Position numbers and translations under genes: made by a program
Part shown: piece by piece, positions 24,831 through 59,430 of the stretch
Numbering within the stretch: the stretch's first letter is position 1
Layout of the letters: every line of letters begins with the position of its first letter
Assembly: GCA_015345905.1 (NCBI GenBank)
Contig: JADDTR010000032.1
Location: 62,001-126,000 of the forward strand
Direction: 5' to 3'
DNA: 64,000 nucleotides
Source: Aotearoamyces nothofagi
Lineage: Eukaryota; Ascomycota; Leotiomycetes; Leotiales; Tympanidaceae
The notes under the pieces: generated by a model
What the model was told of the DNA's origin: nothing
Databases searched by the model: none
The model's input: only the letters and a program-made list of their open reading frames with translations

Positions 24831-26000
24831 ACTGTGCTGTGCTGTATATATCGATCCGTCCGTCTTACCTGCCTTACCCGGTGCCGTGTACGCTGCCGTG
24901 CCCTGGGACCCTCGCGCCATTGCCGTGACTTGGCGGCCAGTGCCTGCCTAGCTGCGCCGGTGCTGTCTGTGTACGGTGCGCCGGCCTGTGTCGTGCGTGT
25001 TGGGCGTGCTGTGCGTGTTGTGCTCTACCGGCTCGCTACTGCTCTGCGCGTGGCTTGATGGCTCCTGCCTCGCTACTGCCGTGCCGTGCCGTGCTGTGCG
25101 CGCGCGCGAGCGAGCGAGCACACGAGTCCGCGGTGCAGTGATCAGCCTTTGGCACGGAGTCTCCCACCCTGCACGTCTCGTCTGCCACGGAGCAAGCCAC
25201 CCTGACTGTTTTGCTTTCCGGACTCCGTTGCACCCTGTCCTGTCCCAGATCCTCATCGGCGGCAGGGGCTCGAGTGCAGGACTTGAGCGACGTGATCGCA
25301 GGCTGCGGTGGGGAAGGAGGGCGGCGGTTAGCTGAGCAGCCAGACGGGCAGAGGCAGCAGAGGGTACGGTACGGCCCAAGTGGCGGCTGACAGTGAGTGC
25401 TTCCTGTGCACCTCGCTCCAACTCGTCCGACGCGGCCAAATCTCCAACCTGTCTCTTGGCCAAGGCGGCATTCCAGGCGAAGGAGGCCGGCCTCGAGGAA
25501 ATACCACACAGCAGCGTCGGGGATCTTACAGCAATCCAGTCAGATGGAGTGGCTGACGCCCTAATGTACGGCGTACTATTTATTGCTTTGGCCCATGCCT
25601 GGCCCATGCTCGCTGGGCCATGGCCTCGAACCGGATGCGGCAGTGTACGAGCGGAGATAACACGGAGACCGGTGGACGAACAGGCGTCGGTCGCAGCATG
25701 CACACGCATGACTCGAGTCGAGCAGCGACTTCTTTCCTTCTTTCTTTCTTTCTTTCTTTCTTTATTTGCGGTACCCTATCTGGCGCCGCGACGATGCAGG
25801 CTAACTCGAGGGTATGCGGTAAACGAGGCCTCGTAAGGCGAGCGAGACGCTGCTTGTACCGGAAAAGCGGTCGAGGACCACGAGAGAGAGGGAGGGCGCG
25901 AGTGCCAGGGAGCATCTGAGGGGAGATGGGAATGGAGGCGGGCACTCTCTGCTGCGTACATACCGTACAGTAAGTACATGCATGCGAATATACCGTACGT

Positions 26001-26070
26001 ACTGTACTGTACTGTACTGTACTGTACTGTACTGTACTGTACTGTACTGTACTGTACTGTACTGTACTGT
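26001..26070 (+). repeat. Perfect ACTGT array, 14 units
   Basis: Fourteen uninterrupted copies of ACTGT (70 bp). On both sides lies the direct repeat CGAATATACCGTAC (25984-25997 and 26072-26085), so the array sits between two copies of a 14-bp sequence. Confidence 0.95.
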
Positions 26071-26365
26071 ACGAATATACCGTACAGTACGTACATACCG
26101 TACATACTGTGGCAGCAGGGCCAGAGCCAGAGCCAGAAGAGCCGGGCCAGCTCGTGCGCTGGGATCTGCTGGAAGGGGACCCGCGGATCCGCCGAGGACC
26201 CCAAGATTCCTAACAAGATCCTGCCTGATCATCATGTAATGGGTTCGGAAGCCGCGGCCTTTCCGCAACGAGGGTGGTGGGCCGGGCTGGCAGGGCGTGG
26301 GCAGGGCGCGGGCAGGGCGTGGGCAGGGCACGGCGGCGCCCTGAGCCACTGGAGCGCATATGCCA

Positions 26366-36376: not shown

Positions 36377-36488
36377 CTTCTTATCCTCTAAGCTTCTTAT
36401 TCTCTAAGCTTCTTATTCTCTAAGCTTCTTATTCTCTAAGCTTCTTATCCTCTAAGCTTCTTATCCTCTAAGCTTCTCATCCTCTAAG
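36377..36488 (+). repeat. Seven 16-bp tandem units abutting the stop codon of the GH71-protease gene
   Basis: Seven consecutive 16-bp units of the form CTTCTTATYCTCTAAG, the last with one change, fill exactly 112 bp. The TAG stop of the minus-strand gene (36484-36486) lies inside the seventh unit, so the array begins at the very end of the reading frame. Confidence 0.92.
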
Positions 36489-39400
36489 CCAAGTTATAAA
36501 TACAGTCAACAGACGATCGTGCCCATGCTTTATCTATTATATAAGCCTTCAGAGCCTCCACACTCGTCAACTGGCTCTTGAGACTAGACAGGCCGATGAA
36601 ATAGGCAGCGAGACCCGCCGTCTTGGCGCATGCTAGATAATTAAAATATCACGTTAGCTCTCGGGTCGGTCGGTCTGTCCTGCGAGCAGAACAGTTAGGA
36701 AAAATATATAGATATAAATTACCTCCAGATGTACCGTCAGCCAGTTCGAATTCCTCAGTTATGCCATCGGCCTTCCAGTATGGAGTACTGTAGTCCACGG
36801 CGGGTGCATACACCTCCAGCCAGCTGGACCGGGAAGAGCCGGACCAGATCGTGCCGTCGTTGTTGACGCCGCCGACGGTCAGGAGGCCAGGCACATAGTT
36901 GACGTCATCCGGATTACCGAAGACCGCAGGCGCGATGTAGACTTCCTAAAAAAGCGGGATCTGGTCAGCAAAGCTTCGTCAGGGGCATTTTGAATGACAA
37001 ATATTCGCGCGGCTTACCGAACCGGCCGTGTTGCCTGCTGCCGCAACGGGAAAGACGCCGAGATCGACCAGTTTCTGCAGTGCGATGGCGAACTTCTTCT
37101 CCCACGTGCGCGTTCCCAGGTCGCTGTATCCGAAGGACATGCTGAGGACGGCGAGCGGAGCAAGGTCGTCCGACAGAGAGGTGGCGGCGCGGTCGACGAA
37201 GTCAGCGTAGATGCTGTCGATGGCGTCGATAGTCCAGTGCTTGTCGCCCAGCGAGTCGAAGTTATAGAGGATGGGCCAGATGTTCTTCGCGACTCCCTTG
37301 GTGGCGCCGGCGACCTGGGCGAGCATCGAGGTGCCGTGATTCTCTTCGGTGCTGATTGTGGTGGTGTATCCCGCGGGTCCGATTTGTACGGCGTCGCCTG
37401 CTTTGGCGGCTATAGAAAGTCCTGCAGAATCTGTGCCTTGGAATTCCTGAGGTATTTTTGTTAGCAAACCGTATGTCCTCGGGTGGGTGGTGGGCTCTGG
37501 AATAGAGAGGTGTGATATCTACTTACTGGTAGAGTGGTATCGAAGCCATGGGGATCTAGGACGTATACAAATACATCTTCTCCCGCGGTTGTATCATATC
37601 TATACTCTCCCCCTAGATCAGTACCTTCATCTTGTGATATAAATGCAAGATCTGCAACTGCGGCGTCCGATATGAAGCTTCCATCCCGTTTCTTGAACTG
37701 ACGAGAGGCAGTCTTCTCAAAACCGAACACATCATTCTTTCTAAAGAGAGTTGGATCTTCACAGTCGTCGGTACATTTGACGTATACTTGTTCAACCTGA
37801 TTCCGTTAGCTGAATTCGCAGTTATCCCTCCAGCGGCTATTCGGATCATCTTACTTGTTTATTGGTATCTACTTGGGTCTCTTGATCCGGTGTAAGGTCT
37901 GCCGCCCAGTACATTATCCCCCATCCGTTGAGCGATACGTGTTCTTCTACGTTTGCTGCGGTGAAGGTCGCTAATAGTGCAGAGATGGAATCTGTATCCA
38001 GGCTGTCCACTGGGTAGATGATATACACGCGGGATGCGTTTTCTTCTGTAGTGCAGTTTGATAAAGAGTTATCAGCATCCTCGGAAGAGAAGGCAGATAC
38101 CGAACCAAAATTAATCACTGTCGCCCCGATAGCCTCGACGTTACCTTCATACTTGAAGAAGTCGCAGTGGTCGAGATAGCCGTATATAGCGGTCTCTTCG
38201 GCACCTACGGCGTAGAGGTCTGATATCCTTTTTTTCGGGTTCGGAAGAGTGATGTCGACACCGAAATCCTTAAAGTTGGCTAGATCACCAGGTGTGAAGT
38301 ACATGCTAGCATCCAATCCACTAATCCCTCGGCCGTCGAGCACTTGGCCCGCTGCTGCAGAAGAGCGTTGTAGGGATCGATAGCCAATAGTCTTTCCGGT
38401 ATTTAAGAAGTGAAGTTCGTGATATGTGCCGTTATAAGTTCCATTTCCCACTGGGGTCCAATCATGTAGAGGAGCACCAGCTAGTAACATGCAGTGTGTT
38501 GTGCAGTTGTCAAGGGTCTGCCAATCCGGATACGTGTTGAAATGATAATCTGACGTAGAATCCCGAGTCTCAAGGGCGTATGTATCGTCCAGTATTGACA
38601 ATATTAAGAACTCTACAGCTTCAGCAATGCACCCAAGAGCATCGCCGTACTCTCCGGAAACAACGACATCGCAGGTGATATCTTCGAGTGCCGAGGTACC
38701 TCCAATTAAGATGACATCAAGACTGTAATCTGAATCGTCGGATGAGACGTACGTGAAGTAGTCTCCATCGCTATAGGTTGCATCTGACGAGGTGTAGGAT
38801 GAGAGCCCAGTTACAGAAGGGTCAGAGGCTGTTTGCGTTGGGTTTATTGTGATTTCTTCTTCGCAGCCACCGGAGGGACAGTATCCATGAGTGCAGGTGA
38901 AGTTGCAGAGGGGGTCGTAGGTAGTAGCGTCCAAGTCGAGGGCAGCGTAGCCAGTGATTGTAGTGTCGATAGTCGGTGCGGAGACTTGACTACCCTTGGT
39001 AAGGCACGTACATGGATCGGGACAGAATCCATAACTACAGCTGTAGCTACAGAGACCTGCGTAGTTGCCTTCGCCTGAGCCAGATGTGCAGACCGCTTCT
39101 CCCGGATCTACTGTTGAGCAAACATCTGGGCAGAAGTCACGGCTGCAAGCAAAAGTGCAGATATCGTCGTAGGCCATGCTTCCAAGTACGGGGAGGTAAT
39201 AAGCCTTGATATCTGAAGCCGCGACAGGCGAGTTCAGGGTTCCTTGAGTAAGGCATGTACACATGGCAATTGGACAGTATCCAACATTGCAACCGTACTC
39301 ACAGAGACCCTCGAAATTGCCATCTCCAGTACCAGAAGTGCAAACTAGTGGCTCGAATGGTGAGATAGTTGGTGTAGGGACAGCAACACTAACAGTTGTA

Positions 39401-43338: not shown

Positions 43339-46300
43339 ATGCCTCTCAATGGGGATGAAAAGGCCGCTGCTGGTTCTGCGCTCACATTCTTGGCTGGTAA
43401 AGATTCTGACCACGGTCGACGAGAGTTGTTCGACTATGAGAGGCTGCTTGCCGAGGATAGCTTCGCCGTTGGTCAAGATTCTCCCGGTTTCCGAGCAACA
43501 TACGTCGAAGCTTTGCGCCTAGCCCTCCAAACCAGGAATCACCATCTGTTCGAGATTCTCTTAGGAAAAGACGCCTCTGCAGACGTATTCAAGGATGAGT
43601 CGGATATCCTCCAAGTTGCTATATTTGCATATCGCGGCGACAGGGGCAGCCGGGAGCCCGAGCCCCAGTTATTGAAGACCCTCATCACCTCTGGGGCTTC
43701 AATCAATTCTTTCGACGATCAAGGCAAATCACCACTGTACTACGCTTGTGACCAAGGCCTCCCAGAAACGTTTAAATTCCTGGTCGAATCAGGCGCCGAT
43801 TGCTCGGCTTTGTTTGATCCATTCCCTAGCGGTGAGATTGAAGATCCTCCAAGCCCGAATGCTAAGCGCCGAGGGAAAGAAAATCTGCTGGAAGCTGCCT
43901 TGCATGCACGACAAGAGAACGAAAAACGTAGCTCAACTACTCATATTTGGAAAGAGAGGAGCGGATGGGAACCGATCGTCATGTACTTGCTTGATGCTGG
44001 ACTGTATTGCCCGCCCGACAACCCAAGTTTGGTCAAGTTTCTACACATTTCTTGCTCTCAAGGCAACCTTCCTTACGTCGAGAAACTTCTTGACTACGGC
44101 GTCGACCATAACGCCCGAGGGGGACGGGGCAATCCTGGAGATTATGTATTTGGAAGCGCCCTGCATGTGGCCGCAGTGATGGGCCAGAAAGACATAGCCT
44201 TCTGCATGCTGAAGCATGGAGCTGATCCTCGTGCCCGGTACCGATGTACACTACCACTGGAGCAGGAGAACATCATGATAACTCCGGTTGAATTAGCCGT
44301 TACACCAAGGCCGATATTCATCCGCAGCCCCGATACGCAGAAAATCTTGGAAGTTTGTGAAATGCTGATCGACTATGGTGCTGACGAGCAAGACGGCCCG
44401 ATCTTACTTGAAAGATGCATCAAGAGCGACAATGCCGAGATGTTGAAGAGGCTTCTTAACAAAGGTATCCGCATCCAAGAAACCCCGATTTGCTCTCAGG
44501 TCCAAGTTGTTCGGCTTTTGCTGGATTATGCGTATCACATTGACTTTGTGAAATTCCAAAGGCATGCCGTTGAGCATGGATTGGTAGATCTGCTACGTTT
44601 CCTCGTTAGCAGGGCTGGCCCGTTATTACCATCGGGCGGCGATTTTGGCACTATAGCAAATAAAATAATACGAGGAAATCATCTAGACATGCTCAGATAC
44701 TTGGTTTGCGAATATGGCTTTGATGTCAACAGCATTTTCCCTTCCCACCCTCGCGCAACTACGCATATCAATCTGCTTCAGCTAGCTTCCGGTCTTTTAT
44801 TTCGCCTCAGTTCAGTTGAATTGTTGTTGGAACTTGGTGCTGATGTTGACTGCCCTGGGCTTCCTGACACAATTCTGGTCCATTTTGGGAAACAACTCCG
44901 AGCGAAAAGATATAATTTTAGCTTTGTTGCTACACGAATGCCAATGGTCCGGCTCTTACTACGCTCTACTCGCGAAAAATCAGAAGCTCGGGTTGCTGTC
45001 GATCCTATAAATGCAACTGATCCAGAAATTAATTCAAAGGCTCAGCAAGTGAAGAGCATAGTTGGACCCTTCTTAAAATACCAAGACTTTCTGAATCTTA
45101 AAGACACCAAGAGCCTAAATGCTGCAGCTCGGTCACGACGGTCGGTCTACTTCATGGCAGATCAAATCGACAGTAGCTCTGCAAAGCAAGAAGAGCTAGA
45201 GTCTGCCGCTACAACATCTCTTAGAGAAGCATATACTGAAGTCCAACTATTACTTGAGACGGAAGAAAGACAATCGTTCCAATACCATCCTCTCAATGAA
45301 CTGCAAAGTATCCGGATTCTAGAGCTCGAGCCTTCCAAGTCGATCAACGATCCTATCCGAGGCCGGCTTGTCACGGTGAATCTTGCACAAAAGCCTCACT
45401 ACGATGCCCTGTCGTACGCCCGAGGGCATCGACCGAAGATGATACGCATTTTGCTTGAGGACAAATTTTTTGAAGTGGCTGAAACTCTGTGGTTGGCGTT
45501 AAGGAGGTTGAGATATGAAGATAAGCCAAGATACATTTGGATCGATGCCGTTTGCCTAGACCAAGAGAACACCCAGGAGCGAAATCAACAAGTCACTATC
45601 ATGAAAGATATCTACCAGATGGCGGATCAGGTCCTTGTTTGGCTTGGGGAGGAGGCAGATGATTCTCACCTTATTTTCAAGCATCTGAAAGAGTGGAAAG
45701 AGTACTGTGAGGACTACAGAGCCGGTCGGGTAAAATCAAGAGACCCAGGGGTCAATGAGTCTCACATAAATCCGCCACTTTACACCGGAAAGACGAGAGA
45801 TGCATTTCTTAAGCTGTGTCAACGGCCATGGTTCTTTCGCTGCTGGGTGATACAAGAAGTCGTAATGGCAAAGCACCCAACCATGATGTGCGGCGCGCAG
45901 ACAGAGACTTTTCAACTCTTGGCACGTCCGAGTGGTTTTCGTGCCGGCAACACGTACCATCCACTCCATGGAATCCATGGACCTTCTCGTTATCACAATC
46001 TAATAGAGATCAGAAGCCGTGCCAGAATGGGTGGAGTCAAGGACATAATCCGGTACAGCAGACTTTGTGAAGCGAGTGATCCAAGGGACAAAGTCTACAG
46101 CGTCCTTGGGATGTTGAAGCGACAGATGATCCCTATCGATTATTCCCTTAGCATTGCTAACATCTACCGCACCTTCACCCAGGCTATCATAGAGGAGACA
46201 CAGGAATTGAATGTTCTTCACTGGATAGGTAGTCAGAGATTGAGAGATGACCTTGGCTCGTGGGTACCAGACTTTAGCGTGTGTAACCCGGTAGGGGTAT

Positions 46301-47040
46301 TACCAAGGGTTTATGGATCATGGAGTCGTAGCACGAACTATCCCAGTCGTATCTTGCCCGGCTTCCGATTCGACGCAGCGGAGATTCTCGTCAAGGGGAA
46401 ATACATCGAAGCCATCGAAGACGTTGGACCCGAGCTCAAGGCAATCGTCACCAACACGCCGGGCAGCGGCAGTTTTTCGGAAACGCTCTACTACTGGGAG
46501 TCTCTCGCCGCCAAGCTGGTCTCCCGGAAACGGTTCCAGTATGCTGTCGCCGGCGCCTTTCTCGACACCCTCACTGCAGACGACAGCTGCCGGACGGTCG
46601 CCAACAGCAACGCACGCGAGTTCTCGGGCCAGGCTGCGCACTTCGCCACGTGGTATCGGCTCTATGGCACCGGCGTGCTGGCGGAGGCCGATCCCGATTA
46701 TTTCAAAGACGTCGCGTACATCCAAGATTGGTCGGGCGATCGGGATGCTCCTGCAATGGACAAGGAGAGACGTCTCTCCCTCCTCGCTCGGAGCTTGGAA
46801 TCGGCGTGCTATGGTAGGAGCTTCTTTATCACCGATCAGGGCTCGATGGGTCTCGGCCCGCCGAGGGCGCAGCCAGGAGACGAGCTTGTATACTTCCCGG
46901 GCGGGTCGTACCCGTTCGCAGTGCGAAGGCGTGAGGAAGGGACATGTGAGCTGGTTGGTGATTGCTTCTTGTATGATTTTGATGTTTATCGGTTGTTCGA
47001 CGATGACGCAAAGGAAGTCAAAGACTACGTATTACGATAG
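43339..47040 (+). CDS. Ankyrin-HET protein (heterokaryon-incompatibility family)
   Basis: Single exon of 1233 aa from the ATG at 43339 (MPLNGDEKAAAG). An in-frame ATG at 43168 would add 57 low-complexity residues. The first half has ankyrin repeats, for example KSPLYYACDQGLPETFKFLV, KFLHISCSQGNLPYVEKLLD and SALHVAAVMGQKDIAFCMLK. The second half has a HET domain at about residues 685-860: YDALSYARGHRP, then YIWIDAVCLDQENTQERNQQ, VLVWLGEEADD and WFFRCWVIQEVVMAK. The usual TWG after YDALSY is replaced by ARG. The C-terminus shows the common end of HET proteins (GPPRAQPGDELVYFPGG, CELVGDCFLYDFDVYRLF). HET proteins act in non-self recognition and regulated cell death in filamentous fungi. The ankyrin part is likely the sensing or regulatory half. 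The gene looks intact. Confidence 0.88.
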   Translation: MPLNGDEKAAAGSALTFLAGKDSDHGRRELFDYERLLAEDSFAVGQDSPGFRATYVEALRLALQTRNHHLFEILLGKDASADVFKDESDILQVAIFAYRGDRGSREPEPQLLKTLITSGASINSFDDQGKSPLYYACDQGLPETFKFLVESGADCSALFDPFPSGEIEDPPSPNAKRRGKENLLEAALHARQENEKRSSTTHIWKERSGWEPIVMYLLDAGLYCPPDNPSLVKFLHISCSQGNLPYVEKLLDYGVDHNARGGRGNPGDYVFGSALHVAAVMGQKDIAFCMLKHGADPRARYRCTLPLEQENIMITPVELAVTPRPIFIRSPDTQKILEVCEMLIDYGADEQDGPILLERCIKSDNAEMLKRLLNKGIRIQETPICSQVQVVRLLLDYAYHIDFVKFQRHAVEHGLVDLLRFLVSRAGPLLPSGGDFGTIANKIIRGNHLDMLRYLVCEYGFDVNSIFPSHPRATTHINLLQLASGLLFRLSSVELLLELGADVDCPGLPDTILVHFGKQLRAKRYNFSFVATRMPMVRLLLRSTREKSEARVAVDPINATDPEINSKAQQVKSIVGPFLKYQDFLNLKDTKSLNAAARSRRSVYFMADQIDSSSAKQEELESAATTSLREAYTEVQLLLETEERQSFQYHPLNELQSIRILELEPSKSINDPIRGRLVTVNLAQKPHYDALSYARGHRPKMIRILLEDKFFEVAETLWLALRRLRYEDKPRYIWIDAVCLDQENTQERNQQVTIMKDIYQMADQVLVWLGEEADDSHLIFKHLKEWKEYCEDYRAGRVKSRDPGVNESHINPPLYTGKTRDAFLKLCQRPWFFRCWVIQEVVMAKHPTMMCGAQTETFQLLARPSGFRAGNTYHPLHGIHGPSRYHNLIEIRSRARMGGVKDIIRYSRLCEASDPRDKVYSVLGMLKRQMIPIDYSLSIANIYRTFTQAIIEETQELNVLHWIGSQRLRDDLGSWVPDFSVCNPVGVLPRVYGSWSRSTNYPSRILPGFRFDAAEILVKGKYIEAIEDVGPELKAIVTNTPGSGSFSETLYYWESLAAKLVSRKRFQYAVAGAFLDTLTADDSCRTVANSNAREFSGQAAHFATWYRLYGTGVLAEADPDYFKDVAYIQDWSGDRDAPAMDKERRLSLLARSLESACYGRSFFITDQGSMGLGPPRAQPGDELVYFPGGSYPFAVRRREEGTCELVGDCFLYDFDVYRLFDDDAKEVKDYVLR

Positions 47041-47289
47041 CCTCTTCGTTGCAAAGAATTATATATCTTGCTCAACTGTTTATAGCAAGCAAACGTCAAG
47101 TGGCTGGCATCTGACGATTAATTCAGTATCTAAATACGTCTACGCCTCTAACTAACTATTTCTCTACGTTATATAACTATTCCTCTATCTGATGTATATA
47201 GATAGACACATTACTTATCCGCTACTAGAGCCTCGAGCAGCGCCGGCTTCCCAAGAAGTTTTCCCGGTTGTTTCATATCTATAATTATA

Positions 47290-49719
47290 CTACAGGCAAT
47301 GATCTGGATTACCGGAGGGGTTCCCCCACCAAGTTGGGAACGCATGTTCTGTTCCGCTCGCGCCGAAAACGGCAAAAGAAAGGATGAAAATCACGATCTG
47401 GGATCCCCCGTCCAGTGCTGCGCCGATGAGGTAGTTGTACTCGTTATAGATCCGCGGCATCCGACGCCTTAGCCAGAACTGCGAGAAGACCCCGACCGCG
47501 ATTGAGGACCAGATCCACGACGTGATTCCGTAGTAGGTCGTGCCGGAGTACGCGGCAATGATGGCCGTATTGAGCGGCCATTTCTTCAGAAGGGGGAACT
47601 TCTTGATCAGACACCAGTGCAGCGCTGGTAGGGCCAGTCCGATGATGATACCGAGAGGAACGATAAGATAGCTACCTTTGGAGCTGTACAGCTGCTTTGC
47701 CAGCGCCCATGTGATTGCTTGGGAATTGAGGCTCTGCATAGTAGAGCCACTCCAGACGTTGTTCCCTACAGAATCGAGAAGGATTTCCCGCTGGTTGGTC
47801 ACGATGGTGGTCATGACGGCGTAGTTCAAGCCTGCTCCTAGAAGGGTCCCGTAAATCTGGGTGAAAAACATGACACGATGAGGCACCTTGGTATATTGCC
47901 CGACTTTGAGCCAGTTGGCTAAGTTGACGGCGAGGAGGATGACCTGGTGGGACCAACTGGCGAAGTATAGATTGGCCAGGGGTCGACCAGGATGAAGGGC
48001 GCCTGCAACCATTTTGGAGATTTGGTTGGTCCCGACCCCGCTTCCGTACAGTCCGTAAAGAATACAGGAGAAGGGAGCGATGAAACCCCCCAGAAGAAGA
48101 GAGATGATATAACCCCAGACAGGAAGAGTCGTTTCTCCTTTGATAGTCACGATTAATCCGGCGAAAAAACACAAGACAAAAAGCACGAGGTACCACCATA
48201 TCGGGACTTCCTTGTACTTGAGCATCCCCTGATAGTGCAGGTCGGGTTGAGTTTTATTGCGCGCTTGCTTCCATGCAATGACCATGTCTTTGCTGTAGAA
48301 AATCAGGACGTGACTTATTAATGCTCCAATGGCCAGGTTCATAGTGAAATAGCCCCAAATAGTGCTGGACGTCATATGCGGTAAGCCGATTTCATCGAGC
48401 TTAACGTTATCGATGGTACCGGCGTCGTTCAGGATGGAAGTTGTCGTCAGTTTGGTGCCATTACTCATGAAAAGAGATGTCGACATGAAGGGGAAGTTTT
48501 TCGCATTCCAAGCGTTGCTATAGTACAAACCGAGCATCGCAGCATACCAGATCACGTAGCCGATCCAAGTGTTCAGCTGTTGCTTAAACGGTAGCGACAG
48601 GTATGTGCTCTGGATGTATTGCCAGTCTAAGGAGAAGTTCAAGAGGCCTAGGCCTTCATTGGACGAAGCCCCTCCAAAGATTGTCGAGAAGACAGTGCGG
48701 GTGCCTGTCGAGCCACCCATTGACGCAAGACAGAAGATCGAGATGCCTCCAAACCACGTCACCATGTAGGCGGGAAATATTTCCCAAACAGCAGCAAAGG
48801 CAAGAGCGCAGCCAAACTTGATGAGACGGCCCCGATTGGCGAGCTGATCAAAGTGCAGATTCTGGAAGAGGACGACTTGGGGTAATGTAGACCAATATAC
48901 CATTTCTGCAGGGTAGACGATCAGCGGTCGTAACACGCCTGCCAGAACGAATCCACAGAGCGAGATTGAGAAGGTCGCCAGCACCGCGGTGGTGGCAGAG
49001 ACAGCTCGATCATAAAATAGTCGTTCGACGGCATAAACCTCCACTCCGGACAGGCCGTTGTTACCAGACGAGGCGATGAGAGACGCGACGACATGTTCTT
49101 TGATGCCGAAGGGCTGTCCAAAATTAAGAAAACGGAGCGTCTTCTGCAGCCATTTCCATTTAAATCGGTCTGGGCTGGGAGTAAAAATGGCCCATGCTTC
49201 ACCAAAAACATAAATCAAAACTATAAAAAGCATGAGTAAAAGGTCTCGACAGGCTTGCCACGAAGAAGAGACATACGCTGCAGAAAGACGGCCGATACTT
49301 GCATCTCGGTCGGCTTGAACGTATAAAGCATCGTGATCACACTAGAAAGGGCAGTGAAAGCGGTGCCCAAGACGAAGCAACGAAAGGTAAACGCGGGGTC
49401 CCCATCGTCTCGGGGAGATACCAGGAATTTGGATACGTCGTCCCCTAGTCACAGACACGTTAGCAGCAGTAATAGGCAAGAGAGGATATGCGCAGCAGTT
49501 AATACCATTGCGAATGACGGGATACCCCTTGACATATACAGCATCGCCATCATGTTCGGGGCTAGTAGAGTCTCCAGCGTGTGTTTCGCCGGGCAGATCC
49601 TTCGCTTTCTTCTCACTGCCGCCTACGGATAGCTCCTCCGTCGCAATCGTTGGTTGATGCGCTTTGGAGACATCGAGGACGTCTTTCCCACCTAGTGGTT
49701 CCTCGACGTAGTCTGGCAT
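47290..49719 (-). CDS. OPT-family oligopeptide transporter
   Basis: Plasma-membrane proton-coupled importer of small peptides. Three exons: 49719-49506, 49444-49277 and 49220-47290, with introns of 61 and 56 nt, giving 770 aa. The spliced N-terminus reads KGYPVIRNGDDVSKFLVSPR, then DDGDPAFTFRCFVLGTAFTA, the usual entry to the first membrane helix of this family. An upstream in-frame ATG at 49800 is possible. About 14-16 hydrophobic segments follow, with family landmarks such as GEAWAIFTPSPDRFKWKW, VFGASGTEHAFPTWWGNP at the C-terminus, and a KEHVVASLIASSG loop. A neighbouring RNR fusion and SnoaL protein do not suggest a shared pathway. The promoter side has a perfect hairpin at 49912-49955. 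Confidence 0.9.
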
Positions 49720-49911
49720 ATTCTGGGTGACGTAAGAGGGACAAGATGGGAAAAGAAGTATGCCGAATTCGTCTCTAATATACACATGCAGAGATAGCAA
49801 AAGAGAGAGAAATGCGGGAATAGATCACCATCATATATCCCCAATCTAAGAGATTTTCCTTACCGGTATATAATGGCGTGGAATAAGGGAACAGCTGCAG
49901 ACAAGCCTAAA

Positions 49912-49955
49912 TTATCAGAGACTGACCACCGAAGTGGTCAGTCTCTGATAATTAG
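49912..49955. repeat. Perfect 20-bp inverted repeat with a 4-nt CGAA loop
   Basis: The left arm (49912-49931) and right arm (49936-49955) are exact reverse complements, separated by CGAA. The hairpin lies about 190 bp upstream of the OPT start. It could be a cruciform, a two-site operator, or a small transcribed hairpin. It is too short for a typical MITE and no target-site duplication is evident. Confidence 0.9.
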
Positions 49956-50208
49956 CCACTTCAAATTGATGATGCGATTTCCAACTTAAATGGTAAATTC
50001 GCCATACTACCCTTTCCGAGGTTGAAGTTGACGAAGGCGGTCGATATCTGGCGATTAATTCCAGGACGGTGTAATTATACTGGGGAATGCCGAAGTAAAG
50101 CCAAGCAGCTGATAAGGGCCCTATCCCCTGCAACGCCGCCGCGGCTCGCACCGCTTTCGCACTCTTGGCCTTGGTGAATCCCTGACTCCACGTGTACCTG
50201 CATTGCAT
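49915..50208 (-). pseudogene. Doubtful 97-codon open frame with a helix-hairpin-helix-like segment
   Basis: The translation contains KSAKAVRAAAALQGIGPLSA, where LQGIGPLSA recalls helix-hairpin-helix loops (LxGIGPxxA) seen in a group of uncharacterised fungal proteins. The rest has no support, and the end runs through the hairpin at 49912-49955. It may be a decayed fragment of such a gene or a chance open frame. No function is proposed. Confidence 0.2.
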
Positions 50209-50999
50209 AATCTATATTATATATTTATATTTATTATATTATAGCGCAGTATCTATATTATATTATTGTACGGTATCTATATTATATTATAGTACAGTAC
50301 CGCAGTGTCCATAAAACCCGGGCCCGTACATGAAGCTCGGTCGTTAGCTATCGATAGCGATCGGCCGTCTAGGTCAAGTCGCCGCGGAAGAAGATAAGAC
50401 TAGTCTCTGAACCTCATACGATTGTAGCGCCTAGACGACAAGCTCGCTTCTTTCATCATAAGCTTCTCCAAGCACATCATTTTCGTTCCCCGGCTCCCGT
50501 CCCTGGGCGAGCTGCTTCGGCGGAGCTACAGCGAGACGTGAAATTCTTTGTTTTACCGGGAAGTCTATTGGGCGGGAGTGTTCCGGGCATCGGACGTGCT
50601 GCGTGCAGGTGCACCTTGGTCAGATAATCGCGACGCTGCCCTCGAGATCATACGGCCGATGATAAACGAAGGTAGGGGGGTTCGTGGTTATTGCTCGTTG
50701 ATACGGTCACCGTCGGATCCCTAGGACGGCCATCTGCCAGAACCAGGGTGTAAGATAACTTGTCGCCATTGGCAACAAGAGGACCATTATATTATAACTT
50801 GTACTCCTTAGCCACTGTATACATATACTCACTCACCCGGTAGATCGTCATCTGGTCATTAAGATATTTCATTTCTAAACTAAAATTCTATTCTAATAAT
50901 ATTTCTTAAGCGGGGATGATATAGGTATTGCTTTATATAGTAGCGAGGAAATCAAAAAGTAGGCAGGGGTATTAACGATTAATTCTAGGTTCCGTAAAT

Positions 51000-53480
51000 C
51001 TAAAATACTTGTTCAAGTATAGCCTTGAACTCTTCATCTGTATGCTCTCTGCAATCCCTGAAGCGCTTGCGTAGGTTCGAGTCGCCGGATCTGAACCGCT
51101 GGACAGTGAGCTTGCCACCGGCAAGCTCCTTGCACTCCATCAAGTCCTCGACGTCGACGAGTAAGGGCACCACAGTCGTGCGGAATTCGTATGGCACACC
51201 GGAGTTTTTGATGAGCTCGATGCTGGTTTCCAACACCTGCACGTCGACATAGCGTCCTGCGACCTGCTTGTACTTGTTCAACGCACACTTGATGTCCATG
51301 GCTACAAAGTCCACCAGCTTCTCGTCGAAGATCTGGCGCAGGATCTCGGGTGACGTGCCGTTCGAGTCTAACTTCACGCTGACGCCTGACTTCCTGAGAA
51401 CGCGGAGGAAAGGAATGAGCCCTGCGTGTATGGTGGGCTCTCCACCAGAAATCACAAGGTTTTTGTGTTTCGTCGACATGATATGTTTGAAGACGTCCTG
51501 TGCTGTGAGGGTCTCACCGTCGCCCTGGATGATTGGGCCGTTGTGACACCACGGACACTGCAGGTTGCATCGCGAGGTAAACATGATCGATGCCTGAACC
51601 TTGCCAGGATAATCGCTCAGCGTAACCTTGGTTAGTCCAGCAACCTGGAAGTCCGCCGCTGATGGTAGTTCAAGCTTCTCCTCCTTCTCTTCAATAAGCG
51701 CCTCGGGAATGAGATACTCCTTGCGCATGGAAAACTCCTCCTTTTTCCCCTTGTTCCAGTCCTTGATTGGGCGGTAATAGCCTACAATGCGGGAGTACAC
51801 AAGGCACTCTCCTCCACATGTTGGACATTTTTGCTGCTCTCCATTGATGTATCCATGTGCCTTGCAGATACTGAATGTTGGTGTCAATGAAATATATGGA
51901 AGGTGATATTGGGTAGCAAGCGCCCGTAAAAGATCCCGTGCTTGTTTCCAACCGGTAAGACGCTCGCCTAAGAACGCGTGGAATACCGTGCCTCCTGTGT
52001 AAGAGGAGTGTAGGTCCTCTTGATGGCTCGACGCTTCAAATAAGTCCTCTGTTGCGTTAACCGGGAGCATCGTTGAGTTTGTGTAAAAGGATGGGATTTT
52101 GTAATCTGGGAAGAGCTCTCGATCTCGCTGCGCCAGTCTGTAGCTGGTACTCTCCGCTGGTGTTGCTTCAAGGTTGTACAGGTGTCCCGTTTCGATCTGG
52201 AACTCTTGAAGCTTCTCCTTGATAAAGTCTAGAATCTCCAATGCAAAGTTCTTCTCGTCCAAAATTCCTCTCCCGACTAATACGAGGAGTGCTTCGTTCA
52301 TACCGAGCAGCCCAATTGTGCTGAAATGGTTAGTCCAGTACGATCCCGTTCGTTCGTGTATGACTCTCAAGTAATGTGCTGCATAAGGATATAATTCAGC
52401 GTGTCCGTCCACAACCTTTCTCTTGATCTCGAGTGAGTCTTTTGCCACCCGAAGCGTATCGGCGAGCTCCTTGAAAAACGATTCCTTTGATCCAGAGCGT
52501 ATGGCAATGTTGGGAAGATTTAGCGTCACAACTCCGATGGAACCTGTCAACGGAATAGATCCAAACAGTCCGCCGGCGCGGCAATGTAGTTTACTTATAT
52601 CGAGTCGCAGTCTGCAGCACATGGATCGAAAGTCTTCGGGGTTCAGGTCGCTGTTGATGAAATTGGCAAAATATGGCACTCCGTACTTGGCAGTCATCGC
52701 CCAGATAGACTCGTACCGTGGTGACTCCCAATCAAATCCGTCATACAGATTGTAAGTCGGGATCGGGAATGAGAAAATGTTGCCGTTGCCGTCTCCTTGG
52801 ACCATTACAGCCGTAAATGCACGGTTAATCATATCCATTTCGTCCTGGAAATCGTCAAATACCCATTCTGAATGACGCTCTCCTCCGATAATGACTGCCT
52901 GTCCCTCGAGGGTCTTGGGGCAGATCAAATCCATCGAGATGTTTGTGAACGGCGCCTGGAAGCCACTTCTTGTAGGAACGTTGAGTGAATACACAAAACT
53001 CTGCACACACTTGAACACTGCATCTTCTGACAATTTGTCATGGCGAACAAAAGGTGCCAAGTATGTATCAAAGTTGGACAAGGCCTGCGCTCCAGCAAGC
53101 TCTCCCTGAAGTGTGAACAAGAAATTGACCATCTGGTTAAGAGCGGTGTTGAGGTGGCTCGGTGCCCTGCACTGAATCTTGTTTTCGACGCCGCCAAATC
53201 CTTCAAGCAAAATGTCTTCAATGCTCCATCCCGAGCAGTAGGCGCTCAAAAACCCGAGATCGTGGATATGGAATCGATTCTCCTGGCTGTAAAGCCGCAC
53301 TTCTTCCGAGTAGACATGATCGAGCCAATATTCAGACATGATATGTCCTGAAATGTACTGCATCAACCCCTGATGCGAGTAGGTTGAGTTTGCGTTCTCG
53401 GCACCCTTCCATGTCGCTTTGCTTAGATATTCGTCGACCAACTGGATATGATCCTGGGGCTTTTTAGTTGTCAAAGCCAT
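51000..53480 (-). CDS. Class III anaerobic ribonucleotide reductase fused to its radical-SAM activase (NrdD-NrdG)
   Basis: NrdD reduces ribonucleoside triphosphates to deoxy forms with a glycyl radical. NrdG makes that radical from AdoMet using a 4Fe-4S cluster. Both are oxygen-sensitive. One intronless frame of 826 aa. NrdD part (1-590): HDLGFLSAYCSGW with Cys82, LQGELAGAQALSNFDTYLAP, the RSMCCRLRLD motif (Cys288, Cys289), GLFGSIPLTGSIGVVTLNLP, a zinc-site region with Cys539, Cys552 and Cys555, and the radical-site motif SRIVGYYRP with Gly567. NrdG part (610-826): GLTKVTLSDYPGKV, the radical-SAM CNLQCPWC (Cys638, 642, 645), SGGEPT and FVAMDIK. A charged linker (590-610) joins them. There is no N-terminal ATP-cone. 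Bacterial homologues are normally two adjacent genes, so horizontal transfer plus fusion is inferred. Whether formate or a redoxin is the reductant cannot be told. Confidence 0.93.
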   Translation of the reverse strand: MALTTKKPQDHIQLVDEYLSKATWKGAENANSTYSHQGLMQYISGHIMSEYWLDHVYSEEVRLYSQENRFHIHDLGFLSAYCSGWSIEDILLEGFGGVENKIQCRAPSHLNTALNQMVNFLFTLQGELAGAQALSNFDTYLAPFVRHDKLSEDAVFKCVQSFVYSLNVPTRSGFQAPFTNISMDLICPKTLEGQAVIIGGERHSEWVFDDFQDEMDMINRAFTAVMVQGDGNGNIFSFPIPTYNLYDGFDWESPRYESIWAMTAKYGVPYFANFINSDLNPEDFRSMCCRLRLDISKLHCRAGGLFGSIPLTGSIGVVTLNLPNIAIRSGSKESFFKELADTLRVAKDSLEIKRKVVDGHAELYPYAAHYLRVIHERTGSYWTNHFSTIGLLGMNEALLVLVGRGILDEKNFALEILDFIKEKLQEFQIETGHLYNLEATPAESTSYRLAQRDRELFPDYKIPSFYTNSTMLPVNATEDLFEASSHQEDLHSSYTGGTVFHAFLGERLTGWKQARDLLRALATQYHLPYISLTPTFSICKAHGYINGEQQKCPTCGGECLVYSRIVGYYRPIKDWNKGKKEEFSMRKEYLIPEALIEEKEEKLELPSAADFQVAGLTKVTLSDYPGKVQASIMFTSRCNLQCPWCHNGPIIQGDGETLTAQDVFKHIMSTKHKNLVISGGEPTIHAGLIPFLRVLRKSGVSVKLDSNGTSPEILRQIFDEKLVDFVAMDIKCALNKYKQVAGRYVDVQVLETSIELIKNSGVPYEFRTTVVPLLVDVEDLMECKELAGGKLTVQRFRSGDSNLRKRFRDCREHTDEEFKAILEQVF

Positions 53481-53886
53481 TGTGTCGATGTTGTTGGTTC
53501 TTCTTTCTTATGTAGATGCAATGAAAGAAATAATATCGATTCAGACGTGGTCACCAACTTTCTTTTAACACTTCTGACCGAGTCCTTTGTGATGTCCTGT
53601 AAGCACTTAACGTAACGTAGTAAAGAAGAATGAAGTAAGGGAGGAGAATGTAAATTCCAGTTCTATAGTGGTGGCTAGTAGGCACCTCGGCCGTTTCTCA
53701 AGGTGTAAATAGATGGCGCGTGGTCGAATAAATCTCTTTTGGGATCACGCGCGTCGTGTCAACAGCTACTTAGTCGAGACTTTGTACGTTGCGGGAGTAG
53801 CTGGAATCCATAATGAATCATATTTATGGCTCAGAGCGTTGTAACTTGTCAATCTCGTTGAGTGAAAAACCAAGACGCGAAATTAC
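53481..53886 (-). promoter_or_regulatory. Proximal upstream region of the RNR fusion gene
   Basis: About 400 bp between the start codon and the ACGCGT cluster, with a CACGCGCG element near 53747. No other gene is visible. The assignment as promoter is by position only. Confidence 0.4.
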
Positions 53887-54097
53887 ACGCGTTTTTTACG
53901 CGTTATCACGTGGTTGTGGCAAGCGCACTATCACGCCGCATCACGCGTTATCACGCCGTATTTACACGTAAAAACGCGGTATTAGGTAGTTTTACGCGGT
54001 ATTGCACCGTAGCATGATATCATATAGTATCATACGGTGTCACCTAGTAGAACACGGTGTCACGGTATCACGCGTTATGGAACACGGTATCACGCGT
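53887..54097. promoter_or_regulatory. Cluster of five ACGCGT (MCB-type) hexamers
   Basis: Perfect ACGCGT palindromes lie at 53887, 53898, 53943, 54070 and 54092, with several near matches (ACGCGG, ACGCCG). ACGCGT is the MluI cell-cycle box bound by the Mbp1-Swi6 factor in yeasts, which drives DNA-synthesis genes including host RNR genes. The cluster is 407-612 bp upstream of the NrdD-NrdG start. The surrounding sequence is a degenerate repeat of ATCACGCGTT/ACACGGTGTC units, so the hexamers could be a by-product of that repeat. Confidence 0.45.
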
Positions 54098-55984
54098 TGC
54101 AGAACACGGTGTCATGCGGTCTCGCGCCGTCTTGTAATTAATTACATTACCGTTGCCACATGCTTATTGATGCTGATTAATAGAAAGCCGTGTGGAATTC
54201 TGTATGTTATGATAATTTATGCAAACCCTCTTCCCCCAGAGCTGGAGAATACGAGCAACCATATCCTACTACGATCCTGTGGTGTTTACAAAGTACTGGC
54301 CGTCACTCCGTAGATCGTACTTTGAAAGCTCCGCGGCGACATGGCTGAGCTCGAGACTCACTTCTATCCGAATTTTAACTGCATCCCGTCCTCCTCAAAA
54401 CTTGAACCACTGAACGCTAATATGTATTCGATCGCTATAGAACGGCATCTTATTCATCCTTGGATTGATTTAAAATAGGCTCCTAGAGATCATATATTAT
54501 CGAGTATTACAGAGGGCTGGCACCGACTCAGATACAACTGCATCCTCACTTTAATGCGTCGGGTTTAGACTCTTACAATTCTGGAAGGACTCGCGATTCA
54601 GACATAGGATAAGAGTGTTCTTTGTGTCCGAGGTGTTGATAAAGGAGAGGAAGGGTTATATAGCTGGAATGGCTTGAAACATGGTAAGTTACAATTGATT
54701 TTGTCGGGACCTTGTACTGCAATGGTTGGACTTGATCGATGGTTTGAGTTTTGTTATAGATAAGAGGAAAGAGATATGAAATAGAATTGAGAATAAGATG
54801 GAAGAAGTAGCAGAGGAGGGAATGATCTGCTTATATTCCTATAGAGGCTTCACAGCCCAACAGCTAGGGAAAACTCCGAGTGTGGTATTACCAAGAGCAG
54901 GCTTCGAATACACTTTGGAAAGTCTGCATTTTGATGATGGAGGGGTATGGAACCCTGTATAGCGATGTTATAGACGATAGGTAGTAAACTATTAGAACTC
55001 TGAGTATATTCTAATAAAGCCTTCATTTTTCAATGGTAGAGAAATAGAACAGCAAAATATTAAAGACAAATTTATAACTGTTTCAAAATTAGCTCGATGG
55101 AACAAAAAGATCGCATAGAGCTCCTCTCAAATAGTAACAAGGATCAAAATAAAAGCTGTTGGCCTCCATTTTGAATCAGATAAACTTGACATTTATTCTC
55201 TCTCTCGAATAAAAGACGGATTAATGAGGGAGGGCGCTGATAGGCAGTCCGTCGGATAAAAAAATAATACGGATCAGTGACCAAGCTTGTACTGCCGCGA
55301 AGCCATACTCAATTCGTACGAATTGAATTCAGTCAACCCCGCATTCTGCACACGTGAGCTTCCGCGAAGAAGAGTCTTGGACCTTTAATTCGATTACATA
55401 GTGAAGTTATTATATTTAGTAGACGGATCTTCGTAAACTTATTGAAAAGAAAAGTCAGATTCTAAATTAGAATATAAGTTTGATTTTTATTATTTCGTGA
55501 TAATTATAAAATGATAGAACAGGGGAGAGGTTTAATATAATAATGGTTTATTTATAGATAAAGGACTATATAGAAGATTTAGCTTCTCTCTCCTTTAAAG
55601 TATATTGACAGCTAAGCAATAGTTATTTATAACAGTAATTATATATTTCCACTTTGTGTGACAAGTACAACAAGGTAGTCAAAAGATTTCTATCTGCCGG
55701 CCTTGTATTAATTTAAGCGGCATAAATCAGCCTTAGGCCTCAGTTTAGATTTGGTCAGTAACTACTCAGGTCCAAGAGTAGAAATAAATTTAATACTAGA
55801 AACAGAGAATACTAGTACTTGACGTGTCGGTAGAGAGCCAAAACCCTCTTCTGAATTATTAACCAATGTTATTGAATCTAGAGCGGTTATATTCTTAAGG
55901 TTTCGGAGGTTCTAATTATAATGTGTTGCATACAAGATGATAGCAAATATCAGTCTCAACTGATAATATATAGTTTCCCGCTCT
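54098..55984. other. AT-rich stretch, no gene seen
   Basis: About 1.9 kb, strongly AT-rich from about 54,960 onward and especially at 55,380-55,680, with no open frame of note. It could be decayed transposon DNA altered by repeat-induced mutation, but I recognise no element. The rest may be 3' flank of the SnoaL-like gene. Confidence 0.5.
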
Positions 55985-56742
55985 CTATGGTTTCTTTGCT
56001 CCCCAGAACAGGTCTATCTCTTTCCCCTCTAGCCAGTCATGCATAGCGTCATACATTTTGTAGAATTCCGTGTTGTTCATCGTTGCTAGGTCCTTTACTA
56101 CAGGATGTCCAAGCATGTGCTGCGCAACCCCCAAGTACTGATAACCCTCTGGATATTCATCTAGCAATTTTTTGCTGAAAGTCGGCACGTTTTTGCCATC
56201 AACTGGAGTCACTTTATCTTTCTCATAGAAACTCTTGTAATATTTCGTCTTCCACTCATTGCCGATCTTGGTGCAGAAAAAGATAAAGCGCACATCACAA
56301 TCAACATCAAATTTCACCCCGTTAATGTTAAAGCGTTGCGTGATGGTAGCCTTCAATTTACCAACAGCGCGGGATTTGGCCAAATTGAGATCCACCAATG
56401 TGCCATTCTCACGGTGCATGATGAAATCACCGTTCTTGCGACCTTCTTTTGAGACTTTGATGAAGTCTTGGATTGTCAGGCCGCCGCTCCATGCTGTATT
56501 ATCGTATGCTGATTAGTTCGGATACGGGAGACTAGGAAGGAGGGCAACCACTGACTTGTCCAGACATAAGCATCGTCAGTGAAGAGACTACGGAAATTCT
56601 CCCATTCTGAAGCGTCACGATAGACAGGCCAGCCCTTGCAGATCTCAGAAACGCAAAATCGGGCAAGAATCTCTTCTGTTGATCCGTTGATGTGACTGTA
56701 CGTCACCGGCTGGACTTCCTTATCGGTGATGTTGTAAACCAT
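55985..56742 (-). CDS. SnoaL-like (NTF2-fold) protein
   Basis: Member of the SnoaL-like NTF2-fold family common in ascomycetes, some of which act as cyclases, dehydratases or isomerases in secondary metabolism. Exons 56742-56556 and 56493-55985 flank a 62-nt intron (GTCAGT donor, ACAG acceptor), giving 231 aa. The N-terminus has the first helix and the [20 protein letters not shown] block, with FTDDAYVW at the start of the cone. The following [33 protein letters not shown] and [11 protein letters not shown] match the conserved strands of the family. No biosynthetic core gene (PKS, NRPS, terpene synthase) is nearby, so the substrate cannot be guessed. Confidence 0.8.
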
Positions 56743-57985
56743 GATTGATGAATTGATGTCTAATGATGTTTGGTGTAGGCAGGGTTCTTACTGTGTAGCA
56801 ATTGTTACAGGCTTGACGTGATATATCACAGGATGACTGATAAATAAATGTGCGGAATGGCTGGCTTTTGAATGATGTGAAGGCAACTTTAAATGACGGA
56901 TCACGTGCTCGATGTTATGAATACCGTTTTTATGATCCGAGAGACTGTGCCAGTCAGTGGCGTGACGAATCTTGGATCAGAGGCGACGTTGGATCCTGGA
57001 GTATCTGCCACTATCCACTGCCGTACCAGCCGTAGACATCTCCTAATTCCCCCGTCAATCCACGAGAAGCAGCGCCATGCTCTATATTCTCTAGCAAACC
57101 AGTAACACCACCCCTATATAAGTCCCCGGACTCTCTAGTCGGGCTCGAGTGCTATGTAGCAAAGCTTCTTGCACGCATGACTAGTCCCCATTATGACCGC
57201 GTCATCATTGATTTCTAGCCTTCTGTTACAACTGGAGTACAGTATATTCTTATTCCGACTGTATCATGAATCCATGATGAGGGCGATATGTTGGAATGTG
57301 TCCAACAGGCGAGCTCCGCTGGGGAAGCCCAGCGGCGCAAGCATAGGCCGAGGGGCCGCCGGTCTAAACACAGTACAGTACGTACGTACAGTACGTACGC
57401 ACAGTATATCATCTTGCAAGTTGCCACCTCCGGAATATCCGCTCTACAGTCTTCAGAGGAGGAGCAGCCCACCCGGTATTGATATACTGTGCCAGTCCCG
57501 TGCATTCTTGGCCGCAGCCCCGCCTCGCTTAATGCGCATCTCGCGCATCTCCCGCATCTCCCGCACCTCCCTGTCTGTTGGCTGTAGGTGGAGGGCAGAA
57601 AAGTGAAAAGGATCGTCTAATAGTTGAGTTAATCACTTCAAAATACCGCATATGCAAAAATTGCACCCACAGACGATTAAATGTTATAATCTCATGTTGC
57701 TGTTGTGAATTAATTGTTGCAACGTCGACATAAGCAACATTACTCCCTGGAGAATGACATCAGCTCTCGGGTTCTCGGTTCCAGGGTTGCGACGACTTGA
57801 GCCTCAATCCCTACACCATTCTTCTTCATAATTCCGAATGACTGGAAATAATGAAGCTCTCCTTTGGAGCGTTGACTACATCACGATAAACAGGGTTGAC
57901 GCCACAGGAAAACCATTCAGTCTTTAAGTTTTACTGTTTAACCAGCTCCAGAGCTTTAGATCTGAGGTAATAAAAAATCTGAAGG
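56743..57985. other. Intergenic region with GTAC-type repeats
   Basis: About 1.24 kb. A TACAGTACGTACGTACAGTA-like stretch at about 57366-57402 resembles the GTAC/ACTGT repeats of the 25-29 kb desert. A CATCTCCCG/CATCTCGCG short repeat is at about 57536-57565. No supportable gene. Confidence 0.5.
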
Positions 57986-59430
57986 TCATAAATGCCCACC
58001 GTCCCTCCCTCGACTGCTCCCTCCTCTCGACCCAAAAACTCTCTCAAACATACGCGCTTTGAAGATCCCACATAGTTCAAGGCACCTTACATCTCGCTTG
58101 GGTACCAACTGGGTAGCCCATACACCACACAATCCGGCGTCCCTGTCCATCCACCAATTCACATTCGGCGTGCTGCTGCAAAACATATATCCCTCCCTCA
58201 TTTCTCCTTTCGAGTCTTTAGATACTTCTCTGATCAGCATACCACCAAGTCCCCAATCTAGTACCGCCACCTCAGCACTTTCGCTAAACATACTGTCAAG
58301 TTCCTGATATGCTAGAAGTTCAGTGAGATGCCCTTGGGTGGAACAAGGGAGATGAGATGTGAACATCAAATCGACAGCTTCCCTGCTCAAAATCTTCTCG
58401 TCATTTATGCATAGACTTTTAAGCAATTTTGCGAGATCGACAGCTGAGCAATATATTCCAGTCCCACCATCATATGTCTTATTCGCTGTGTTGGGATAAT
58501 CGAGTTGCTCGTTGTAACCATACTCATTATCGGCGGCCATGATAGGGCCATCAGTACTCAAACCCGTCTCATATATTGGATGGACAAGGCCTTGCCTCCA
58601 GCTCATATCCAACAGGCATCGACTTGGAATGCTAGCTGTGGAAATATCAAAAGTCGTGTGGTACATGTTTAAAGGATGCCATATGTTGGTTTGCATATAG
58701 TATTCGAGCGATGTGCCGGTAATCCGTGAGATAGCAAGCCCTACCCATGTGAAATTCGCACTTTGGTTAGACCAAAGTTGGCCGGGACTGAATTTCAGCG
58801 GACGGACAGGAGAGGAAGGGCCAGACATAATGCCAGAGGTGTGTGAAAGGAGATGGCTATTAGATATGTCAGACCATAATGAGTTCATTTTATGCTGTTG
58901 CTGGTCTTTGATATAGATGGAGAGCAGATATGGAGTGGATTATGTGAAAAGCATTGAACGAACCGTAGAGTAATGCTGTTATCTTTACTCACAGAACTCC
59001 GCTTATTCTTCTTACTTTTACCGGAGGATTTTAGGACCTCCATATTCTTTAACTCAGGTAAAATTCTGCTTATATCTTCGTCAAGACTGATTAATCCTTG
59101 TTCCACACACTGTAGTACTGCTACGGCAGTCATAAGCTGTGTACATTCAGCGATCCAAAAAATAGCATCGAGTTTCAGCTCCTCTCCTAGTCGGTCCTTA
59201 TTCAGAGAACTCTCGCCAAAAGCTTGAGCATAGTGAAAGTCATCTGGAGATATATTTTAGTAGCGACCATGCCTAGGAGTTCTCGGGCCTCCAATTAGAA
59301 ACATACTTGGCCCGTGAGCCACCAGTACTGCACCTGGTATCTGGCCCGTATGACATGCCTGCTGCATGATTTCCTCCAAAGAGCTTTCTGAATCCGCCGA
59401 CTGGCTGAGAAGAAAATGTTCATATAACAT
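57986..59430 (-). CDS. Beta-lactamase/transpeptidase-like protein lacking the SxxK catalytic pair
   Basis: Serine-hydrolase family related to class C beta-lactamases, which in fungi includes esterases and acyltransferases. Exons 59430-59307, 59243-58964 and 58856-57986 (introns 63 and 107 nt) give 424 aa. Family signposts are HTGQIPGAVLVAHGP, FHYAQAFGESSLNKDRLGEE, LDAIFWIAECTQLMTAVAVL, SLDEDISRILPELKN and, after splicing, ITLRHLLSHTSGIMSG. At the catalytic position the usual IASxTKLMTA reads IAECTQLMTA, so the nucleophilic Ser is Glu and the general-base Lys is Gln. The later Tyr of the WxY-type motif also appears changed (LWSNQSANF). The fold is kept and the gene has no stops, so it looks like a maintained pseudoenzyme rather than a decayed copy. 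The exact 5' end is less certain. Confidence 0.75.

Follow-up and report, generated by a model that had tools for sequence, protein, structure and literature searches.

The association of the anaerobic (class III) ribonucleotide reductase (RNR) NrdD with its activase NrdG in one eukaryotic polypeptide has been described before. Lundin et al. (2010) reported eight eukaryotic class III RNRs, from fungi and Phytophthora, in which NrdD and NrdG form a single ORF (PMC3019208). The hosts named in the passages of that paper seen here are Schizosaccharomyces japonicus, which has one additional, separate nrdD, Fusarium/Gibberella/Nectria and Phytophthora. The same passages present the NrdDG genes as acquired from bacteria, with fusion proposed to aid fixation, and in the places found there the ATP-cone is mentioned for other proteins only. 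A passage of a 2015 review describes a late origin of the fused enzymes in some unicellular eukaryotes (PMC4390871), an excerpt of a further paper credits anaerobic rumen fungi with an NRDD domain (PMC6712302), and part of a 2021 article ties anaerobic deoxynucleotide synthesis in Sch. japonicus to a transferred RNR that it calls class I (PMC8520639). Normally NrdG activates NrdD by encounter, NrdD then turning over alone, as an excerpt of another paper sets out (PMC11226230). Among the PMC papers listed by our searches, none was noticed that assays a fungal NrdDG enzyme, and no Fusarium paper was found there under the full name of the enzyme.

The gene described here, nrdDG, lies in a window of 64,000 nucleotides (the whole stretch of DNA that was analysed) from the genome of Aotearoamyces nothofagi; its features are collected in the table. 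This kind of gene is already known, and nrdDG is a further fungal case. The earlier note had presented the fusion as new for a fungus, a claim that falls to the 2010 publication of NrdDG fusions in fungi and oomycetes, where, in the passages seen, the same argument of transfer and fixation is made (PMC3019208). In our reading, nrdDG very probably belongs to the known eukaryotic NrdDG fusions as a fungal representative and goes back to prokaryotic nrdD and nrdG genes of the RNR subclass NrdDh4. Like the genes of Lundin et al. (2010), it combines NrdD and NrdG in a single ORF of a fungus or oomycete, with a proposed bacterial origin and a sporadic distribution, a likeness that is set by the published description and not by sequences and that may span different host lineages. 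The single ORF of a eukaryotic genome that characterises that set is seen here as an ORF with flanking fungal genes. Compared with the passages of the earlier literature seen, what is added is that the ATP-cone is missing, that the protein falls in NrdDh4 and that a sample of prokaryotes lacks the fusion, the first two points being established for this one fungal protein.

Table. Features of the nrdDG gene and of its flanking transporter gene (positions within the window)
Feature	Position	Strand	Basis or remarks
nrdDG fusion gene	51000..53480	minus	single exon, 826 codons plus stop, ATG to TAG
Start context GACACAATGGCT	53475..53486	minus	sequence; in-frame stops upstream
NrdD half, residues ~10-590: class III RNR catalytic barrel and glycyl-radical tail	51711..53453	minus	profile matches, alignment, model
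YCSGW, residues 81-85, conserved active-site cysteine C82	53226..53240	minus	aligns with T. maritima NrdD in its Cys region
C288-C289 of the MCCR motif	52614..52619	minus	counterpart SCCR C329/C330 in T. maritima
G567, glycyl-radical site	51780..51782	minus	counterpart G621 in T. maritima, G580 in T4
Linker, residues ~591-612	51645..51710	minus	low model confidence; 601-610 in <20% of separate relatives
NrdG half, residues 613-826: radical-SAM activase, C638-x3-C642-x2-C645, SGGEP	51003..51644	minus	profiles, alignment, model
OPT transporter gene, flanking	47290..49719	minus	Pfam; 61-nt intron at 49505-49445

Domain profiles matched both halves of the protein far beyond chance. In Pfam, NRDD covers residues 28-589 over its full model (1-562 of 562; 593 bits) and Radical_SAM residues 633-776 (63.9 bits). 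In NCBIfam, PRK08270 aligns residues 9-589 with profile positions 99-681 of 684 (849 bits, cut-off 548), the match starting without the first 98 profile positions, and NrdG2 (TIGR02495) aligns with residues 613-786 (156 bits, cut-off 131). With 826 open codons and both domains above the profile cut-offs, the presence of NrdD and NrdG in one gene of a fungal contig is borne out, and the motifs listed previously (the NrdD landmarks, the NrdG cluster motif and SGGEP) are found in the translation. The start context GACACAATGGCT is one that we take to be of fungal type. Rfam detected nothing at 46000-58000.

The gene was further described as intronless and as encoding an intact catalytic apparatus, and both statements hold. 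In a position-by-position check C82, C288, C289, G567, C638, C642 and C645 were all present, and G567 aligns with the glycyl-radical residue G621 of Thermotoga maritima, the site expected of a class III RNR. Alignment to 64 NrdD and 55 NrdG relatives leaves only short extra stretches: the residues present in <20% of these relatives are 206, 601-610 (the linker), 629 and 826 only. Since the columns of the relatives are matched throughout nrdDG and the frame is open, the gene lacks introns and shows no stop codons that would point to decay. Columns at least 95% conserved among the relatives are kept at 150 of 160 positions in NrdD and at 18 of 20 in NrdG. Of the ten NrdD columns that differ, two hold one and the same residue in 64 of 64 relatives; there Asn is replaced by V400 and Gln by H491. 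Altered function of the NrdD half is therefore possible. These ten changes, together with a long branch of 1.19-1.49 substitutions per site, are what might be expected of a relic, a gene that after its transfer has decayed or changed in function and no longer acts as an RNR. Against this stand the 826 open codons, the retention of every catalytic and cluster residue checked and the large majority of conserved columns kept in both halves, so that we consider a relic unlikely.

An AF2 model of the protein, built from 24 aligned rows, has a mean pLDDT of 80.6 and a pTM of 0.69; its low-confidence parts are residues 281-311 and ~591-660, the latter including the linker and, within the cluster loop, residues 635-643. 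An earlier model made without an alignment (pLDDT 31.9) was not usable, and an alignment combining the separate NrdD and NrdG sequences was set aside, its NrdG rows being wrongly placed. Searched against the PDB with Foldseek, the model finds class III RNRs at the top, first that of Prevotella copri (E 1.1e-30) and then that of T. maritima, with ~20% identity in the structural match to the latter; the NrdG tail matches the PFL-activating enzyme (E 6.3e-7).

The active site places the protein within the class III enzymes more closely. According to the part of the paper seen (PMC4493059), an MCCR variant with Phe in the finger loop marks subclass NrdDh4, while NrdD2 is defined by a Glu together with a third Cys (Wei et al., as told there). 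The fungal protein has M287-C288-C289-R290 and F306 in a GLFG finger loop, and the third Cys (C288/C289) is accompanied by E438, which aligns with residue 495 of T. maritima NrdD. Most of the 64 relatives fit the same signature, with MCCR in 61/64, GLFG in 61/64 and NLE[AS][TS]P in 62/64. From MCCR, GLFG and E438 together, an NrdDh4 enzyme of thioredoxin type is therefore predicted. In excerpts of the same paper the SCCR cysteines are essential in T. maritima NrdD (NrdDh1) and the NrdD of N. bacilliformis (NrdDh3) uses thioredoxin (PMC4493059). We found no reductant test of any NrdDh4 enzyme in print.

With the NrdDh4 proteins of RNRdb and the NrdD of PRK08270 the fungal protein has MCCR, the Phe finger loop (GLFG) and the glycyl tail in common; it differs from their sampled prokaryotic representatives, which usually carry an ATP-cone and whose NrdG is always separate where found. 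The enzymes of T. maritima and N. bacilliformis share the cysteine pair of the CCR motif, and that of T. maritima also has a Glu at the equivalent of E438 and a disordered loop resembling the low-confidence segment 281-311 of the fungal model; both, however, have a separate activase and SCCR, as against the fused activase and MCCR of the fungal protein. With the NrdD-NrdG systems of E. coli and T4 there is agreement in the overall reaction and the radical logic, but those enzymes have a formate-type active site, in the passages seen (PMC4493059), separate subunits and low sequence similarity to the fungal protein.

The prokaryotic relatives bear on where the fusion arose. We assembled 73 relative loci, comprising 46 on genome contigs (from a pattern scan), 2 on viral contigs, 5 on plasmids or phages and 20 stretches from genome searches; a few of them are duplicates, L006 and L071 having identical NrdD, as do L013 and L014. 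In none of the 73 were NrdD and NrdG found in one ORF. They occur as separate ORFs on one strand in 58 loci, and in 56 of these the NrdG match begins at the earliest 34 nt before and at the latest 555 nt after the NrdD stop; in the other two, NrdG lies 1251 nt after the NrdD stop in one and before NrdD in the other. Searches of 785 genomes from four phyla, at a threshold of 1e-100, gave 110 matching genomes (46/192, 46/198, 4/199 and 14/196 per phylum), none of them with an nrdDG fusion. The match extends past residue 630 in seven genomes, each with at least one internal stop. Of the matches free of stops, the two longest extend to residues 619 and 627; their frames, of 737 and 768 aa, are too short for an NrdD-NrdG fusion.

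A fusion inherited ready-made from an unsampled prokaryote, and not formed in eukaryotes, is improbable in our judgement, though a little less so than a relic. Three genomes (G181, G357 and G638) stand one step away from it, having nrdD and nrdG in the same frame with a single stop between them, and the sampling consists of four phyla plus loci selected by pattern; on the other side is the uniform absence of the fusion from the 73 loci and the 110 matching genomes. Patescibacteria or archaea had been considered as sources of such a ready-made fusion on the strength of tblastn ranges that hinted at it, but ORF analysis found separate genes wherever both were found, and the candidate was dropped.

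Some of these loci have peculiarities of their own. In nine (L024-L026, L028, L029, L031, L032, L042 and L049) the NrdD ORF stops near query residue 555-566, and the glycyl-radical tail is encoded by a short ORF of its own, which in L049 is annotated as a separate nrdD CDS of 174 bp. The glycyl motif is unmatched in 20/64 NrdD cores, for some of which a truncated match is the sole reason. Large in-frame inserts of intein-like length are present near NrdD query residue 175 in L039, L041, L042, L043 and L045. One 27 kb viral contig (L047) carries an NrdD of 49% identity without an ATP-cone, and no NrdG match was seen within the 7.8 kb examined.

The ancestry of the two halves was addressed in separate trees. 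Quick trees were made of the window sequence with 64 NrdD relatives (9/73 loci omitted) and with 55 NrdG relatives (18/73 omitted), the omissions being short or split matches, and a careful NrdD tree has 36 rows, namely the window and 35/64 hand-chosen relatives. The closest relative by identity is L061, at 58% over 541 columns. The fungal branch is long in each tree, with 1.37 substitutions per site in the careful NrdD tree, 1.49 in the NrdG tree and 1.19 in the quick NrdD tree, and in none of the three is the fungal row included in a starred group of at most half the rows. In the quick NrdD tree it groups with L069 (SH-aLRT 86), a grouping that the careful tree neither displays nor excludes and that is not rejected by the AU test (p 0.58). 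Grouping with the Desulfuromonas-type rows is likewise not rejected (AU p 0.39), and grouping with the archaeal row L036 is rejected (AU p 0.0009). L069 may be closely related to the fungal NrdD half. Its genome, G015, is small and bacterial and was drawn from the phylum to which a Parcubacteria genome belongs; L069 itself is a cone-less NrdD of NrdDh4 type; the NrdG match of the same genome (L074) is on a different contig, and the ORF beside the L069 NrdD is, we presume, IF-2-like. The collections searched, genome contigs and viral contigs included, yielded no NrdDG sequence from a eukaryote. As to the separate search and phylogeny of the two halves that had been proposed, prokaryotic ancestry of the fused gene is upheld, its relatives being prokaryotic with the genes separate there; the branches are long, the trees place no donor, and the two halves may or may not go back to a single one.

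The earlier note had also described the fusion as lacking an ATP-cone, and this is confirmed: Pfam finds none in the nrdDG protein and nothing convincing lies upstream. The N-termini of 63 relatives, compared by tblastn with the 3.5 kb upstream of nrdDG, gave weak matches only (best E 0.14). The only good match in the window (E 4e-6, query L069) falls inside the nrdDG ORF itself, because the short N-terminus of L069 makes this query overlap the core. Among the relatives the cone is the rule, being present in 60/63 scanned N-termini; the scan left out 10/73 loci, three with short N-termini and seven with unmatched starts. No cone match was obtained for L069 and L050, which belong to the 63, nor for L036 and L047, which do not. 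Loss of the cone after transfer was considered, and it is weakened by the cone-less state of L069: if this is indeed close to the fungal NrdD, the loss may be older than the transfer to the fungus.

Judged from its residues and domains, the fungal NrdDG would probably synthesise dNTPs without oxygen after activation by its own tail. The NrdG tail would bind a [4Fe-4S] cluster, cleave SAM and make the radical at G567, either in its own chain or in that of a dimer partner. The NrdD half would then, by analogy with its family, reduce ribonucleoside triphosphates without oxygen, with electrons probably from thioredoxin and not from formate. Lacking an ATP-cone, the enzyme should be free of the dATP shut-off of overall activity, the specificity site remaining. 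Class I RNR requires oxygen, and the fungal NrdDG would provide dNTPs when class I RNR lacks it; a working class III enzyme would therefore account for DNA replication by some fungi under anoxia. A fuller reading, which we put forward tentatively and to which we give somewhat less than an even chance, is that nrdDG encodes a self-activating class III RNR made in eukaryotes and without a dATP brake. The activase would have been fused in or around the transfer to eukaryotes, with loss of the cone either preceding or following that transfer; descent from an NrdDh4 enzyme of thioredoxin type would have let the protein draw on the fungal electron supply, yielding dNTPs without oxygen in filamentous fungi. 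The comparison supplies testable points, namely the absence of the fusion from the sampled prokaryotes, the missing ATP-cone and the thioredoxin-type active site.

All of this presupposes that nrdDG belongs to the fungal genome. The OPT gene starts 1.3 kb from the 3' end of nrdDG, downstream and on the same strand, and its intron is of spliceosomal type, ending in AG and containing a GCTAAC that resembles a branch site. Other neighbours have Pfam matches to HAT_KAT11 acetyltransferase, Zn2Cys6 and fungal-specific transcription factor domains, to GH71 and GH16, to HET with ankyrins and to a gamma-tubulin complex protein. The codon usage of nrdDG correlates with that of its pooled neighbours at r=0.37 and is inside the local range, eleven neighbouring ORFs, each compared with the others, giving 0.10-0.62. 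An assembly chimera, or a bacterial contaminant joined into a fungal contig, would fit an intronless, prokaryote-like gene, and on the 5' side the surroundings are less telling: the nearest ORF (55985-56419) has no Pfam match, the second has a beta-lactamase-like fold, and the nearest clearly eukaryotic gene upstream, that of the gamma-tubulin complex protein, is ~6.8 kb off. Yet the intron-bearing OPT gene close by on the shared strand and the local codon usage speak against such an artefact, as does the documentation of NrdDG fusions in fungi, in the passages seen (PMC3019208). A bacterial contaminant in which the same fusion is common, the danger named at the outset, is not what the sampled prokaryotes show (0/73 loci, 0/110 matching genomes), and their lack of the fusion speaks against contamination. 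We therefore hold a chimera or contaminant to be very improbable, the least probable of the alternatives weighed here, and retain nrdDG as a gene of the fungus.

The absence of introns, offered earlier as support for transfer from bacteria on the ground that most long neighbours have them, carries less weight. The OPT gene does have an intron, but ten scanned neighbouring ORFs are also single open frames, of 300-1290 aa, so that missing introns are weak evidence of transfer.

The non-coding DNA around the gene has some features of its own. A perfect 20-nt inverted repeat with a 4-nt loop is present at 49910-49953, between the 3' end of nrdDG and the OPT start. Upstream of nrdDG, a gap of ~2.5 kb turns AT-rich; within it, at 53924-54126, a short CACGGTATCACGCG-like unit is repeated in tandem in degenerate form. 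Elsewhere in the window, tandem repeats occur at 25991-26072 (16.6 copies of TACTG) and at 36377-36489 (7.1 copies of a 16-mer), and GC is elevated across much of 16-35 kb.
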